64,000 bases of DNA. It comes from Halobacteriales archaeon QS_6_64_34. Lineage in GTDB: Archaea; Halobacteriota; Halobacteria; Halobacteriales; Haloarculaceae. The stretch lies in the NCBI GenBank assembly GCA_003020925.1, contig PXRT01000013.1:351269-415268 (forward strand), written 5' to 3'. This document shows positions 21,097 through 56,087 of this stretch, one piece after another. The position numbers and the translations under genes are program-made. The number at the start of each line of letters is the position of its first letter. The first letter of the stretch is position 1. The notes below the pieces were generated by a model, which worked only from the letters and a program-made list of their open reading frames with translations, was not told the DNA's origin and did no database searches.

Positions 21097-21471
21097 ATGC
21101 AGGGTAATCTTCCGCCGGAAGCACAGGAGAAGCTCGAGGAGCTACAGGACCTTCAGGAGACCGCACAGCAGGTCGCGACACAGAAACAGCAGGCCGAGTC
21201 GACGCTGCAGGAATCCGAGACGGCGCTGGACGAACTCGACGACGTCGACGCTGACACCACGATGTATCGGGAGGTCGGCGAGCTGCTCGTCAAGACCGGA
21301 CTCGACGAGGCCCGCGAGGACCTCGAAGAGAAGGTCAGCAACCTCGAGGTCCGCGTCGAGACCCTCGAGAAGCAAGAAGAGCGCGTCCAAGAGCAGTTCG
21401 AGGAGCTCCAGAGCGAGCTACAGCAGATGCTCGGTGGCGGCCCGGCAGGCGGCCCCGGCGCCGGCGCGTAA
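21097..21471 (+). CDS. pfdB: prefoldin subunit beta
   Basis: [34 protein letters not shown]...[13 protein letters not shown]. Confidence 0.95.
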
Positions 21472-21522
21472 TAGTGAACACTGTGGATTATCTCCGGATA
21501 GCGCCGACCCCGGGGTCGGCGT

Positions 21523-21550
21523 CCCGGTAAATCGCTACGAGAGTCAGTAT
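21523..21550. repeat. short relative of palindrome family P (decayed)
   Basis: CCGGTAAATCGCTACGAGAGTCAGTAT. Confidence 0.6.
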
Positions 21551-21556
21551 AAGCCG

Positions 21557-35894: not shown

Positions 35895-36737
35895 ATGGAG
35901 GTCACCGACCGGGTCCACGTCGTTGCGCTCGGGTGGGAAGTCGCGCGCATCGTCGACCCGCTGTTCGAACTCAAGGCCGACAAAGTAGTGCTCATCGGGC
36001 CGCTCAGCGACGCCTGGCTCGCGGGGTTCGAAGAGGAAATGATGGCCGACTTAGAGGGGATGGACCGCCTCGAGTCCGAACTCCGCCGGGCCAACCTCTA
36101 TGACTTCGACAGCGCCGTCCAGGCGTTCAGTCAGGCCGTCAAAGACCACGAGGGCGACGACGTGTTCGTCAACGTCTCGACCGGCACCTCGCTCGCGGCT
36201 ATCGCGGGGATGATGGCCGCCCAGACCGCCGACGCGACGCCGTTCTACGTGCGGCCGGGTTTCGAGGACGATACCTCGGTCCCCGAGGACCCCGTCGTCC
36301 TCGAAGCCGGCGAGATAACGGAACTGCCCGTGTTCGAACTTGAGGGCCCCTCGACGGAACAGCTTCGGGTGCTGGCACACCTCCACGGCAAGGAGAGCGC
36401 GACCAAGAAGGAACTCATCCAGTTCGCCGAAGCCAAGGAGCTCCCCTTTATCGCCAACACCGAGGCAAAGTCCGACGAAGGTCGCTACCGGCTGCTGGAG
36501 TCACACGTCATCGACCCGCTCACCGCCGGCGACTACGTCAGCGTCGAGAAGGTCGGCCGCAAGAAGGAGGTCTACCTCGAACAGCGGGGCATCGACGCGC
36601 TGGCTGCCTTCCCGCTGGACTCTGAGACGCTAAAGACGGTCGAGGGAGACGCCGTCAACGGCCGCTCGAACCCGACGACGCCGAGCCGGGAGGCGACGTA
36701 CTCGTCCCAGCATTACGAGAGCCCGGAGACCGAGTGA
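35895..36737 (+). CDS. HFX_2341/DUF6293 family CARF-like wHTH regulator (copy 1)
   Basis: MEVTDRVHVVALGWEVARIVDPLFELKADKVVLIG...VFVNVSTGTSLAAIAGMMAAQ + C-terminal wHTH ESHVIDPLTAGDYVSVEKVGRKKEVYLEQRG. Confidence 0.85.
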   Translation: MEVTDRVHVVALGWEVARIVDPLFELKADKVVLIGPLSDAWLAGFEEEMMADLEGMDRLESELRRANLYDFDSAVQAFSQAVKDHEGDDVFVNVSTGTSLAAIAGMMAAQTADATPFYVRPGFEDDTSVPEDPVVLEAGEITELPVFELEGPSTEQLRVLAHLHGKESATKKELIQFAEAKELPFIANTEAKSDEGRYRLLESHVIDPLTAGDYVSVEKVGRKKEVYLEQRGIDALAAFPLDSETLKTVEGDAVNGRSNPTTPSREATYSSQHYESPETE

Positions 36738-36816
36738 TACTGCCGGCTGTAACGAACTGAAATAATTCGCTACCCCTGGGTGACGAATATTTTTGTGAAC
36801 GTACAGCCGGCAGTAT
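36737..36816. repeat. 80 bp compound palindrome (family P, long copy 1)
   Basis: ATACTGCCGGCTGTA...TACAGCCGGCAGTAT 15 bp outer inverted repeat; inner ATTCGCTACCC/GGGTGACGAAT. Confidence 0.9.
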
Positions 36817-36866
36817 GAGCGCCGGATACCATAGTTACAAACCGGCCGACGTGCTACGGATTCTCA

Positions 36867-37769
36867 ATGGAGGTAACGGACCGGGTCCACATCGTCGCGC
36901 AGGGCTGGGAGACCGCTCGCGTCGTCGAGCCGATATACGACCTCAAAGCCGACAAGGTCGTCATGCTCTTTCGCGAGGGCGTGTTGCCCGACGACGTCCC
37001 CGACTTCGAGCGAGAGATGCTCGACGACCTCGAAGCGACCGAACGCCTCGGGATAGAGATTCGGGAGGCGGACCTCTATGACCTCGACAGCGCCGTCCAG
37101 GCGTTCAGTCAGGCCGTCAAGGACCACGAGGGCGACGACGTCTACATCAACGTCTCCACGGGCAGTCAGATAGCGTCCATCGCCGGGATGATGGCCGCCC
37201 AGACTGCCGACGCCACGCCCTTCTACGTGCGGTCGAGGACGGCCGACCTGGACGCTGCGGAGGTCAGAACCCCTGACGAGCCGGTGTTCCCGGCCGCCGG
37301 CGAGATAACGGAGCTACCGGTGTTCGGGCTTCGGGGCCCCTCGCCCGAACAGCTTCGAATGCTCGCGTATCTCTACGGGGAGGACGGCGCAACCAAGAAA
37401 AAGCTCATCGAGTTCGCACAGGCGGAGGCGCTCCCCTTTATCGCCGACACGGAGGCCAACTCCGACGAGGGACTGTACCGACTGCTCGAATCGCACATCA
37501 TCGACCCGCTCACCGACGGCGGCTACGTCCGTGTCGAGAAAGCCGGCCGCAAGAAGGAGGTCTACCTCGAACAGCGGGGCGTCGACGCGCTGGCCGCGTT
37601 TCCACTGGAAACGGAGACGGTCGAGGCGGTCGCATCCGGAACCGATACCCCGGAGAAGTTCATCGATAAGTGGGGCGGCGGACGGTACGAACGTATCTCG
37701 GTCAACCCGCAGGAAAAAGAAGCGTGGCACCCCTTCGCTGACAGTCTGTACGACAGCGGCGACGAGTGA
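36867..37769 (+). CDS. HFX_2341/DUF6293 family CARF-like wHTH regulator (copy 2)
   Basis: Paralog of 35895-36737: MEVTDRVHIVAQGWETARVVEPIYDLKADKVVML...VYINVSTGSQIASIAGMMAAQ. Confidence 0.85.
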   Translation: MEVTDRVHIVAQGWETARVVEPIYDLKADKVVMLFREGVLPDDVPDFEREMLDDLEATERLGIEIREADLYDLDSAVQAFSQAVKDHEGDDVYINVSTGSQIASIAGMMAAQTADATPFYVRSRTADLDAAEVRTPDEPVFPAAGEITELPVFGLRGPSPEQLRMLAYLYGEDGATKKKLIEFAQAEALPFIADTEANSDEGLYRLLESHIIDPLTDGGYVRVEKAGRKKEVYLEQRGVDALAAFPLETETVEAVASGTDTPEKFIDKWGGGRYERISVNPQEKEAWHPFADSLYDSGDE

Positions 37770-37786
37770 CTCGTCGGTTGTGAGAG

Positions 37787-37808
37787 ACGCCGAGGAGGAG
37801 ATTTGAAC
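37787..37808. repeat. 22 bp direct duplication of the tRNA-Ser 3' end (att-like)
   Basis: ACGCCGAGGAGGAGATTTGAAC identical to 37917-37938. Confidence 0.85.
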
Positions 37809-37917
37809 CACGCCCAGACGTGCTCGTTCCTGCGCGCGACTGTTCTCATTCAAATCTCCACGGTGACGGCACCTGGCGCTGCTGACTCGCTCCGCTCGTC
37901 AGGTTGCGCCAGTAGAA

Positions 37918-38002
37918 CGCCGAGGAGGAGATTTGAACTCCTGAGTCCGTGAGGACAGTTGCTTTCGAGGCAACCGCCTTGGCCAGGCTAGGCTACCTCG
38001 GC
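37918..38002 (-). tRNA. tRNA-Ser (anticodon CGA)
   Basis: GCCGAGGTAGCCTAGCCTGGCCAAGGCGGTTGCCTCGAAAGCAACTGTCCTCACGGACTCAGGAGTTCAAATCTCCTCCTCGGCG: acceptor GCCGAGG/CCTCGGC, long variable arm, anticodon loop CTCGAAA. Confidence 0.95.
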
Positions 38003-38077
38003 TCGGTTCCGACTTTCGCCGTCTGCTCTTTAGGCGTTTCGATTGGCCGAGTGACTCGGTAGCACGCGCCAGCCGTC

Positions 38078-38159
38078 ATACGGTCGGTTGTAACGATTTA
38101 CCGGTGATTTGCCGAGGCGGGGCCGGCAAATCACGGAAATGGCTTCCAACCGACCGTAT
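38078..38159. repeat. 82 bp compound palindrome (variant of the same architecture)
   Basis: ATACGGTCGGTTG...CAACCGACCGTAT 13 bp outer; inner CCGGTGATTTGCCG/CGGCAAATCACGG. Confidence 0.85.
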
Positions 38160-39697
38160 CACTCCTCGGAGTCGCCGTACCCCCCGCCACCGGGCGTCTC
38201 GACGCGAACCGTCGTGCCCGCCTCGACTTCGCGGGTCACCTTCGCCGGGACGGGCTCGCCGTCGATGAGATTCCGACCGCACGTGCCCGCCGAGCCGCCG
38301 GCCAGCCCCCACGGCGCGTGGCGGCGCCGCTCGGTCAGCAGGGAGACGGTTGCGTCGGTCTCGACGGTGAGTTCGCGGACCAACCCGTCACCGCCGGAGT
38401 GTCGGCCCGCACCGCCGCTGTCCCGCCGAAGGCTGTACGTCTCGACACGGAGTGGGTAGGCGACTTCGAGGGCCTCGACGGGCGTGTTCAGGGTGTTCGT
38501 CGTCCCGACCTGCACGCCGCTTGGACCGTCCACACCGCTACTTGCACCCATCCCGCCGCCGATGGTCTCGTAGTAGCTGAAGCCGGCGCCGCCGACGACG
38601 AGGTTGTTCATCGTCCCCTGGCCGGCGGCGGGAACGCGGTCCGGGACCGCCTGGGCGAGCGCCCGGAAGACCACGTCGGCGACGCGCTGGCTCGTCTCGA
38701 CGTTGCCGCCGACGACGGCCGCCGGCGGCTCGGGGTTGAGCAGCGTGCCCGCCGGCGCGTGGACGTCGATCGGGTCGTAACAGCCCGCGTTGGGCGGGAC
38801 GTCGGGGTCGGTCACCGAGCGCACGGCGAAGTACACCGCGCTCTTGGCGACCGACAGCGGCGCGTTGACGTTGCCCGCGACCTGGGGCGCCGTCCCCGAG
38901 AAGTCGACCGACAGTCGGTCGCCGTCGACGGTCACTGTCACCTCGATGGGGATGTCGGCGTCGGTGATGCCGTCGCCCTCCAGCCGGTCGGTCGCGGTGT
39001 AGCTACCGTCCGGGAAGTCGGCCAGTTCCGCCGCGACGCGCTTGCGGGAGTAGTCCCGGACGGCGTCAAAGGCCGCCAGCAGCCGGTCGCCGTGGTCGTC
39101 GAGCAGTTCGCCGACGCGCTCGGCACCGCGCTCGTTGGCGCCCAGTTGGGCCCGCAGGTCCGCTCGGCGCTGGGCCGGGTTGCGGACGTTCGCCGCGATG
39201 AGGTCCCAGACGGCGTCGACGCGCTCGCCGCCGGCCACCAGCCGGGTCGGCGGGATGCGCAGTCCTTCCTGCTGGATGTCCCGAGCCCCGGCGGGCATAC
39301 TGCCGGGAGCCGTCCCGCCCACGTCGGCGTGGTGGGCCCGGGAGACGGCGTAGCCGACGATGCGGTCCTCGGGGACGATAGGTGAGACGAGCGTCACGTC
39401 CGGCAGATGCGTCCCGCCGGCAAAGGGGTCGTTCAGGACGAACACGTCGCCCGGCTCCGGCTTTCGGTCCAGTACGGCATCGACGGCCTCGGGCATCGCG
39501 CCCAGGTGGACCGGGATATGTTCGGCCTGGGCCACGAGCTGTCCCTCGGCGTCGAACAGCGCCGTCGAGCAATCCCGTCGCTCGGTGATGTTCGGCGAGA
39601 ACGCCCCCCGGACGAGGACCTCGCCCATCTCCTCGGCGACGCTCTCCAGTTGGTTGCGCAGGATTTCGAGTTCGATGGCATCTATGTCCGGTGTCAT
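38159..39697 (-). CDS. hyuB: hydantoinase B/oxoprolinase family protein
   Basis: [61 protein letters not shown]...[15 protein letters not shown]. Confidence 0.93.
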
Positions 39698-41676
39698 CGA
39701 CTCGCCTCCAGCCGAAGTGTCCCCCGCTCGTCGACGGTCAGCGACCATCCCGGCGGGACGACGACGGTGCTCTCGCCGCCCGCGACGATGGCCGGGCCGT
39801 CCGCTGTCGCGCCCGCTCCGAGCGACCCCCAGGCTAGCACCGGTGTCTCCCTGAACTCCCCGTCGAAGGAGACGTCCCGAGAGCGTCGGTCGGCGGCCTC
39901 GCCCGCTTCGTGACCGAGAGGCGGTAGCTCGTGGGTCACGGTCGCCGTTGCCCGGAGTGTGACGAGTTCGATGGCGGCGTCCAGCCGATAGCCGTGAGCG
40001 CGCTCGTGGGCGGCGTGGAAGCGAGCTTCGAGGTCGTCGGGGTCGAACGCCCCGATTCCGACACCGAGTTCGTGACTCTGTCCCGCATAGCGACAGTCGG
40101 CCTCGAAGTCGACGGCGGCGGCCCCGGGGTCGGCCGTCTCCTCGAGGACTGTCGCTTCGAGGTCCTCGAGCACGGCCCGAACGGCGTCGGTCTCGGCCGC
40201 CCCGAGCGTCGTCCGATAGGTGCGGATGGCGTCGTGGCGCTCGTCGGCCGCCAAAAGGCCGAGCGCGGAGAGGACGCCACTCGCTCGTGGGACGACCACC
40301 CGACCGACGCCCAGCCTGTCGGCGAGTGCGGCGGCGTGCATCGGCCCGGCACCGCCGAAGGCACAGATACCGAACTCGCGGGGGTCGTGGCCCCGTTCGG
40401 CCGTCACGGCGCGGATGGTCCGTGTCATCGTCGCGTTGGCGACGCGGTACACCCCACGGGCGGCCTCGAAGGGGCCGTCGAGGTCGGCCTCGCGGGCGAG
40501 GTCGGCCAGTGCCTCCCGGGCCGCGTCGGCGTCCAGCTCGACCGAGCCACCGAGCGTCGTCTCGGGGCCGAGATACCCCAGAGCGAGGGCGGCATCGGTC
40601 ACCGTCGGCTCGGTGCCTCCGCGACCGTAACACGCGGGGCCCGGCTCCGCACCGGCCGATTCGGGCCCGACGCGCAGCGCGCCGCCCGAATCGACCCAGG
40701 CGACAGAACCCCCGCCGGCGCCGACGGTCTCGACGTCGACCATCGGTACCCGGACGGGGCGGTCGCCCACGTCGGCGTCGGTCGTCCGCCGGACGTCGCC
40801 GTCCCGAACGAGCGAGACGTCACTGGAGGTCCCACCCATGTCGAAGGTTACGAGGCCGGCGACATCGTCCGGCTCGAACGCGCTGGCGCCGATGACGCCG
40901 GCGGCCGGTCCCGAAAGCGCCGTCGTCACGGCGTTACCCGCGACGGTCTCGATGTCGGCGATACCGCCGTTGGACTGCATGATGCGGGGCGCTGGCAGTC
41001 CCAGCTCGCGGGCCTCGGTCTCGAGCTGGCCGAGATAGGCCGAAAGCACCGGCGTCACGAAGGCGTCGGCCACCGTCGTCGCGGTGCGCTCGTACTCGCG
41101 GAACGCCCCGAGCACCTCGTGGCTGGCCGAGACGGGGGCGTCGAATTCGTCGCGGAGTATTGCCGCTACCTCGGCCTCGTTCTCGGGGTGGGCGTAGGCG
41201 TGCAACAGCGACACTGCGACCGCCTCGGCGTCGATGTCGTCGGCCAGTTCCCGGACCGCCTCGGGGTCGACCGGCCGCTCGATGCCCTCGGGCGTGGCTC
41301 GCTCGTCGAGTTCGTACCGCCGCGCCGCCGGGACGAGCGGGTCGGGCCGCGCGACCGACTGGTCGTAGAGGTCGGGGCGGGCCTGCCGGCCGATGGCGAG
41401 TGTGTCCCCGAAGCCGGCCGTCGTCACCAGTGCCGTCTGTGCGCCGTCGGTCTCCAGTAGCGCGTTCGTCGCGACGGTCATCGCGTGGCGGAACCGGGAG
41501 ACGGCGGCGGGCTCGACGCCGGCCGCCTCACAGGCCGCCTCGATGCCCGCGACGACGCCCTCGTGCTGTGGGGTCGTCGAGGGGACCTTCGCCGTCGTCA
41601 GCCCGCTCGGCCCGACCACCAGTACGTCGGTGAAGGTGCCGCCGACATCGACGCCGACACGTACCGTATCGTCCAT
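39694..41676 (-). CDS. hyuA: hydantoinase A/oxoprolinase family protein
   Basis: VGVDVGGTFTDVLVV...TFDMGGTSSDVSLVRDG; ATGA overlap with hyuB. Confidence 0.93.
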   Translation of the reverse strand: MDDTVRVGVDVGGTFTDVLVVGPSGLTTAKVPSTTPQHEGVVAGIEAACEAAGVEPAAVSRFRHAMTVATNALLETDGAQTALVTTAGFGDTLAIGRQARPDLYDQSVARPDPLVPAARRYELDERATPEGIERPVDPEAVRELADDIDAEAVAVSLLHAYAHPENEAEVAAILRDEFDAPVSASHEVLGAFREYERTATTVADAFVTPVLSAYLGQLETEARELGLPAPRIMQSNGGIADIETVAGNAVTTALSGPAAGVIGASAFEPDDVAGLVTFDMGGTSSDVSLVRDGDVRRTTDADVGDRPVRVPMVDVETVGAGGGSVAWVDSGGALRVGPESAGAEPGPACYGRGGTEPTVTDAALALGYLGPETTLGGSVELDADAAREALADLAREADLDGPFEAARGVYRVANATMTRTIRAVTAERGHDPREFGICAFGGAGPMHAAALADRLGVGRVVVPRASGVLSALGLLAADERHDAIRTYRTTLGAAETDAVRAVLEDLEATVLEETADPGAAAVDFEADCRYAGQSHELGVGIGAFDPDDLEARFHAAHERAHGYRLDAAIELVTLRATATVTHELPPLGHEAGEAADRRSRDVSFDGEFRETPVLAWGSLGAGATADGPAIVAGGESTVVVPPGWSLTVDERGTLRLEASR

Positions 41677-54877: not shown

Positions 54878-55080
54878 GCCGACTGCGTCGCTGCCCGGGG
54901 TCGCTTGAACACGAGGAACTTCGTCCCGCCGCCCTCGTAGCTGATCGTCTCGACCAGCTCCCACCCCTCCGCCCCGAGTTCGTTGAGTCGAGGTTTCGGG
55001 TCCACTGCCTCCTTCCTGGTCGCGTCACGGTCGGGCCGGAGCGTCTCGTACTCCCATTCGGTGACGGAGCTATCTATCAT
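54874..55080 (-). CDS. DUF4177-like small protein
   Basis: MIDSSVTEWEYETLRPDRD...LNELGAEGWELVETISYEGGGTKFLVFKRP. Confidence 0.8.
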   Translation of the reverse strand: MIDSSVTEWEYETLRPDRDATRKEAVDPKPRLNELGAEGWELVETISYEGGGTKFLVFKRPRAATQSA

Positions 55081-55157
55081 ATATTCGATAATGCTCGGCC
55101 GCTGTAAAAGGACTGGTGCGTGCCAGACCACGTACACCTGTTTGAACCGAGTCACTA

Positions 55158-55237
55158 ATACTGCCGGCTATAAGTTCGTAAAGATATTCGCTACCCCGGG
55201 GTAGCGAATTCCTTCAGTTTGTTATAGCCGGCAGTAT
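55158..55237. repeat. 80 bp compound palindrome (family P, long copy 2)
   Basis: ATACTGCCGGCTATAA...TTATAGCCGGCAGTAT 16 bp outer inverted repeat; inner ATTCGCTACCCCGGGGTAGCGAAT perfect 24 bp palindrome; reverse complement aligns end-to-end with 36737-36816. Confidence 0.92.
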
Positions 55238-55271
55238 AACAACCCTGGCTGCCAAACACCTGCCCAAAGCG

Positions 55272-56087
55272 ATGCAACCGGACCAGGCGGTGCACGACGA
55301 CGTGCAGTTTCTCACCGGGTCGCCCCACCGCCAGGCTGTGCTGTCCGCACTCTGTGACGAGCCCGCCCGTCCCCACGAGCTCTGTGCCGACATCGACGCC
55401 ACGCGGACGACGATTCAGCGCATCCTCGCCGGCTTTCGCGAGCGACAGTGGGTCGTCAAACACGACGGCGACTACCGGGCGACAGTGACCGGGAGAGGGG
55501 TCTATGAACAGTACGAGAGGCTCCGGGCGGAACTCGCGCGAGCCCGCCGCTTCGGGCCCCTGGCGACCCATCTGGGACCGGTCGCCGACGACCTGCCGGT
55601 GGCGGCACTCGAAAACGGCCGGCTCACGGTCAGCGAGGACGGGAGCCCGCTGGCCGCCCTCAGTCGGTTCACCGAGTGGCTGCAGGGAGTCGAGGGGAAT
55701 ATGCACGCCATCTCGCCCGTCGTGGCCCAGCCGTTCAACGAGATAGGCGCCGAACTGCTGAGCGAGGAGACCGGCATCGAGTTCGTCATCGACTCGGCGG
55801 TGCTGGAGCAGTCGAGAGCGAACTACGAGTCGGACTTACGGCTGGGCGCGAACCACGACCAGATGACGATATACGTCCACGAGTCACCGCTCGCTCTCGG
55901 GATTGCCTACGACGACGAACGCTGCTGTGTGGTCGCCTACGACGACGCCAACAACCTCAAGGCGATGCTCGAAGCCGGCGATGGGGAACTGTACGACTGG
56001 ACCGACGAGGTGTTCGAGCGACATCGCGAGCGGTCGGTCCCGCTGGCCCGGTTGCTTGAGGGCGAGAACGCGGCCGAGAACAGCTGA
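55272..56087 (+). CDS. HTH transcriptional regulator with FilR1 (DUF1724) domain
   Basis: FLTGSPHRQAVLSALCDEPARPHELCADIDATRTTIQRILAGFRERQWVV; C-terminal FilR1-like region. Confidence 0.85.
   Translation: MQPDQAVHDDVQFLTGSPHRQAVLSALCDEPARPHELCADIDATRTTIQRILAGFRERQWVVKHDGDYRATVTGRGVYEQYERLRAELARARRFGPLATHLGPVADDLPVAALENGRLTVSEDGSPLAALSRFTEWLQGVEGNMHAISPVVAQPFNEIGAELLSEETGIEFVIDSAVLEQSRANYESDLRLGANHDQMTIYVHESPLALGIAYDDERCCVVAYDDANNLKAMLEAGDGELYDWTDEVFERHRERSVPLARLLEGENAAENS

Follow-up and report, generated by a model that had tools for sequence, protein, structure and literature searches.

A compound palindrome in a haloarchaeal genome very probably represents a non-autonomous mobile element of the MITE type

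In the window (the whole stretch of DNA that was analysed, 64,000 nucleotides), a compound palindrome is found at 55158-55237, 5' of both neighbouring genes. These neighbours had been named in a first-pass annotation as a FilR1-type regulator and a DUF4177 gene; the former is confirmed, but the DUF4177 assignment falls below the Pfam cut-off. The palindrome consists of a 16-bp outer inverted repeat and a 24-bp inner palindrome, both perfect, with 12-bp spacers between them, as the annotation had described it. It had also aligned the reverse complement of this sequence with 36737-36816, and the match is indeed gapless and end-to-end, with 84% identity and with the compensated pair in the outer stem that had been pointed out; the inner palindrome is imperfect in that second copy. 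The focal structure is far beyond chance. Its DNA fold has z = -8.9 and none of 200 shuffles was equally good, while a scan for TNA-flanked TA...TA inverted repeats gave three in the window versus a mean of 0.0 in 30 Markov-shuffled windows. The true element is the 78-bp core listed in Table 1 together with a TAA that is duplicated at its two sides.

Table 1. Coordinates of the palindromic elements of the window and of their parts (TSD, target duplication)
Feature	Positions	Strand	Evidence
Fourth, diverged B/C-superfamily element	21472..21549	-	R1 33.7 bits, E = 1.7e-6; TSD TAA 21469-21471 / 21550-21552
Second family-A element	36738..36815	-	R2 84.8 bits; TSD TGA 36735-36737 / 36816-36818
Family-B element (TACGGTCGG...CCGACCGTA), 80 bp	38079..38158	+	R1 83.4 bits; TSD TCA 38076-38078 / 38159-38161
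Left target duplication TAA, focal element	55156..55158		Identical TAA at 55237-55239; single TAA in relatives
Left arm, outer inverted repeat	55158..55173	+	Sequence; fold
Focal element, family A (TACTG...CAGTA), 78 bp	55159..55236	+	R2 model 100 bits, E = 1.8e-27, the R2 alignment containing this copy itself
Perfect 24-bp inner palindrome ATTCGCTACCCCGGGGTAGCGAAT	55186..55209		Sequence; inner helix covaries within family
Right arm, outer inverted repeat	55222..55237	-	Sequence
Right target duplication TAA, focal element	55237..55239		Sequence; relatives' comparison

Besides this pair, the window holds two further related elements, at 38079-38158 and 21472-21549. Three of the four lie in stop codons, the focal copy being the only one outside. 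The left TGA of the element at 36738-36815 is the stop codon of ORF 35895-36737 (HFX_2341_N/DUF6293_C), the right TCA of that at 38079-38158 is the stop codon, on the minus strand, of the hydantoinase B ORF 38159-40633, and the TAA of that at 21472-21549 serves as stop codon for the prefoldin beta ORF 21097-21471. The HFX_2341/DUF6293 regulators form a tandem paralogous pair (35895-37769), with the second family-A element between them, and a tRNA gene (Rfam RF00005; 37918-38002, minus strand) is placed between the elements at 36738 and 38079. When the DUF6293 protein was used to look for related loci, the matches came from distant genera only.

The element unit is non-coding and 78-81 bp long, it starts and ends with TA, and its terminal inverted repeats of 14-16 bp surround an inner hairpin. 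Its flanks follow the pattern C-T-N (ATACTG...CAGTAT) N-A-G. The N to the left and the N to the right are the same base when read on one strand, thus indicating a duplication of TNA, or at least of N, and not a palindromic target; for the same reason a TA-only duplication of the IS630 type was ruled out. The first-pass annotation had proposed to look for flanking duplications and for empty orthologous sites, and both were found. Identical TNA flanks 25 of the 27 copies in the own genome, which were picked by match to the element and not by their flanks. The duplication is also exact in 79 of 93 family-A candidates and at 17 of the 21 distant top B/C copies, picked by a covariance model that contains no flank information. 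Some copies are without an intact target duplication.

As for the empty sites, the joined flanks minus one TNA align across the junction in relatives. The focal site is uninterrupted in close relatives (CACTAACAACC): the loci L114-L116 and L118 have CACTAACAA there, and the relatives read AACCG...CACTAACAACCCTGGCT, in both cases with a single TAA. Clean empty junctions were also obtained for the copies L003, L016, and L155, and other element-less loci are diverged at the junction. The element at 36738-36815 is lacking in the relative locus L238, and that at 38079-38158 is missing from L203, L238, and L239. Moreover, elements of family A are nested within family B and vice versa, with TNA duplications (L059 1494-1653; L143 and L151, about 1504-1583).

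The palindrome is not part of a local pair but belongs to a mobile family with further copies in related genomes. Family A (TACTG...CAGTA) has about 23 copies in the own genome (24 distinct places at E <= 0.001, one of them partial), as counted in an incomplete assembly, about 80% complete, of which the stretches around copies were analysed. It has matches in 23 of 60 relatives, including about 40 exact end pairs in G034, a member of another genus of the same family, and named records with copies comprise Haloarcula rara, H. marina, H. hispanica, Haloarcula sp. CBA1115, and Halomicrobium plasmids. A 72-bp form also exists, with eight bases missing from the element centre. The second family, B, is represented in the window at 38079-38158, and a covariance model of the B/C elements found members in 33 of 99 order-level genomes and 18 of 42 genera, several genomes giving more than 40 matches. 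The same model picks up the family-A copy at 36738 as well (E = 4e-7), an architectural link between A and B. Copies on plasmids reach Halapricum, Halococcus, Haloterrigena, Natrinema, Natronorubrum, Halomontanus, and Halostella. In viral contigs, the end pattern is matched about as often as expected by chance, with no full element, and no match to the element was found in phages.

Insertion takes place mostly in non-coding DNA at TNA, with an extended preference for GACTNAGTC; with the TNA read as a stop, target sites have a GACTGAGTC-like consensus. According to a rough coding score, only 4 of 97 copies interrupt a gene, whereas 48% of the background TNA sites are genic, and in 37 of the 97 the insertion falls precisely on a neighbouring gene's stop codon. 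This is borne out by independent annotation, which puts CDS ends at the duplication beside an HTH gene and the genes of universal stress proteins, an M48 protease, a dienelactone hydrolase, and a CPBP protease. Stop codons account for about 39% of the non-genic insertions versus about 7% expected from the target preference, a value for which background sites were weighted with a target matrix derived from non-stop copies alone, and which may be too low by 2-fold or more. The true enrichment may be as low as about 2-fold, rather than 5-fold, given that the coding score calls only 48% of sites genic, probably too few; orthologous insertions were left unmerged. The TNA duplication restores the stop codon, and reading frames are intact at most sampled copies. 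We think that this is a clear case of insertion into a stop codon with the stop restored by duplication, a low-cost way of life in gene-dense genomes. Haloarchaeal gene ends often carry hairpins of these elements, which bears on the annotation of 3' ends and terminators.

Covariation in the stem, which had been suggested from two copies, holds, with far more strength than could be seen from two copies, the outer stem and the inner hairpin both covarying beyond controls. In 19 diverse A elements, 93% of the cells pair versus 17-56% in slid controls, although the rows were diverse members found by their inverted ends, so that the outer-stem percentage is partly given by construction; the inner helix was no selection criterion. 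Eleven pairs change on both sides in these elements, with a covariation score of 0.297 versus 0.130 for shuffled alignments. Among 21 B/C elements from across the order, there are 18 pairs with changes on both sides, in the outer and in the inner helix, and the score is 0.436, compared with 0.173 for shuffled alignments and no more than 0.178 for slid ones. A two-ended transposase site, or palindrome repair by template switching, would also give covarying outer arms. Covariation of the inner hairpin needs another reason, which can be selection or the template-switch repair of quasi-palindromes.

Several known systems are close to this element. Bacterial MITEs of the Correia/NEMIS, RUP, and ERIC type are about 100-200 bp long, have TIRs, 5'-TA-3' termini, and target duplication, form a long base-paired stem loop, and are dispersed (PMC2229807). 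The haloarchaeal element resembles them in being short and dispersed, with TIRs, TA termini, a target duplication, and a stem loop. In Correia/RUP/ERIC-type elements the target duplication is TA, whereas here TNA is duplicated, the N between T and A included. It also differs from them in being a compound palindrome of nearly fixed length, 78-81 bp, with a covarying inner hairpin and a preference for stop codons. A 3-bp TNA-like target duplication is a property of the IS1031-type members of the IS5 family and of PIF/Harbinger-type elements, whose ends usually begin with G. The haloarchaeal element shares the 3-bp duplication with them; no such IS with TA..G ends was found in the searched genomes. 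Closer in terms of host are the MITEs, SMRs, and PATEs of Haloquadratum walsbyi, which are short repeats without transposase (PMC3119063). Its SMRs have ITRs, with one family of 80 bp, and an enigmatic mobiliser; no target duplications were reported for them, and they insert mainly into other mobile elements (PMC3119063). Its MITEs are related to known transposon ends, and its PATEs are without ITRs (PMC3119063). Going by these descriptions, the present element differs from the SMRs in duplicating TNA. In the open-access literature, no description of families A and B was found for Haloarcula or Halomicrobium; they may have been named before in ISfinder.

Of the candidates in the first-pass annotation, the MITE is borne out: the target is duplicated, some orthologous sites are empty, copies are dispersed, and some insertions are nested in one another. 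That the palindrome represents a non-autonomous mobile element of the MITE type is a reading in which we have high confidence, its mobility being well shown and its mechanism inferred. In the best reading, these are small palindromic MITEs in the Correia/RUP/ERIC style that form a new superfamily and are presumably moved by an enzyme acting in trans. A transposase provided in trans by a sporadic or now absent element would recognise both ends, cut, and then join the ends to a target with a 3-bp stagger, and purifying selection would remove the insertions in genes, so that those in stop codons and spacers remain. An ordinary DDE transposase needs no inner hairpin, thus the covariation of the latter is unexplained by such a model. 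Perhaps the hairpin is kept because it helps to pair the ends of so short an element; alternatively, it might protect or end the transcripts in which the element sits, or hairpin-templated repair might keep re-perfecting it. What began as a curious palindrome appears to represent an abundant and apparently undescribed class of mobile DNA across an archaeal order, and raises two questions: why a covarying inner hairpin persists in an element that should require no more than its ends, and by which enzyme the element is moved.

When searched in 26 genomes (the own genome, G034, and 24 further relatives), the exact end pattern led to no autonomous partner, most of these searches needing nearly exact 14-bp ends, and no matching IS appeared among the inspected unpaired ends or in haloarchaeal plasmids. 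The transposase family examined was DDE_Tnp_1, whose loci in five genomes had no matching TNA-TA ends except for an IS inserted in a copy. An IS-sized end pair of 1,491 bp in G034 (L101 1058-2548) corresponds to an unrelated DDE_Tnp_1 IS, presumably ISH8-like, which has inserted into a family-A element and duplicated 10 bp there, CTTTACGAAC. The other unpaired ends belonged to decayed copies or, in L278 and L284, to coding sequence. The idea that the palindrome is just the terminus of a known IS thus finds no counterpart in the genomes and plasmids searched, where no IS has the element's ends. In H. walsbyi, MITEs can have only a few terminal bases in common with a transposon, and a functional transposase can be absent (PMC3119063).

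The covarying hairpin is where other explanations come in. Template switching in quasi-palindromes could keep the structure by mutation bias only, giving compensated changes without selection. The nearly perfect palindromes with matched variants agree with this, as do the 8-bp central deletion behind the 72-bp form and the chimera-like copies L253 823, L016 500, and L021 528, whose halves come from different subfamilies and are joined near the palindrome centre, which fits recombination or template switching at that point. However, pairing is retained in the arms but the 12-bp spacers remain non-palindromic, and the inner palindrome persists order-wide with changed sequence and a nearly fixed element length, so that we regard mutation bias as the sole cause as doubtful. 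We also consider it unlikely, somewhat more so, that the element, although mobile, has its main present role as a portable RNA structure, that is, as a 3' mRNA hairpin which ends transcription or protects the transcript at stop codons and whose stems covary for this reason. It does fold strongly as RNA, whichever strand is read (z about -6.4 to -10), it is placed directly 3' of stop codons, and its inner helix covaries. Nevertheless, elements at stop codons show no clear preference for one orientation relative to the gene (11 opposite, 7 same). G-U mismatches are about as frequent as A-C ones in the outer stem (6 vs 8), in the inner stem the two differ only mildly, among related copies (25 vs 11), and a consensus scan finds no terminator at the elements. 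No RNA sense was established from these counts and the orientation test, nor did an Rfam search give any match at the elements in 36500-38500 and 54900-55500. The existence of orthologous sites without the element also means that it is not needed there. A structured RNA, another of the original candidates, is hence not supported as the identity of the palindrome, yet a secondary RNA role could accompany mobility.

The dyad regulatory site, to which a host regulator such as the adjacent FilR1-type protein would bind, fares worse as an origin. Upstream of the FilR1-type gene, the focal copy interrupts a conserved stretch (AACCG...CACTAACAACCC), so it could change that promoter, but copies adjoin unrelated genes, often after stop codons, the FilR1 gene has orthologues without the element, and the distribution is patchy, all of which makes this option very improbable. 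Even less credence can be given to a single-strand hairpin element of the REP/RAYT or IS200/IS605 type (PATE-like): hairpins, short length, and intergenic location would suit it, but TNA duplications and true terminal inverted repeats are not expected of IS200/IS605 chemistry. A bolder alternative is an ancient, order-wide Halobacteriales class of about 80 bp that moves via a folded intermediate, cruciform or single-strand, by means of an unrecognised enzyme that has a TNA target and favours stop codons; both stems would coevolve, and the host would gain portable 3' hairpins at its gene ends. We think that this is improbable, although far less so than the regulatory site. The MITE moved in trans is therefore the reading that we prefer.

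Some minor observations accompany these elements. In the own genome (L029 1291-1306; C7:58290) there is a 16-bp remnant, ATACTGCCGGCAGTAT, flanked by CTG/GAG, in which the outer ends are joined and the interior is lost; it may be the scar of an excision or deletion. A different compound palindrome, TATACGGGTCGACAGAA...TTCTGTCGACCCGTATA, 74-84 bp long, occurs in G011 (L060 489-572, L151 1366-1448, L161 396-469, and L165 999-1082); its inner part is family-A-like and its flanks are without TNA duplication. G042 contains a longer relative of 108 bp, TACTGTCGGACACAAGT...ACTTGTGTCCGACAGTA (L159 581-688), with a TGA duplication and adjoining a B-type end. Finally, the sequence TAGTGTTTAGTTTAGTAGAAAACGC...GAGCCAGAAAGCCCC recurs beside several elements (flanks of L025, L026, and L150) and is apparently another dispersed repeat.
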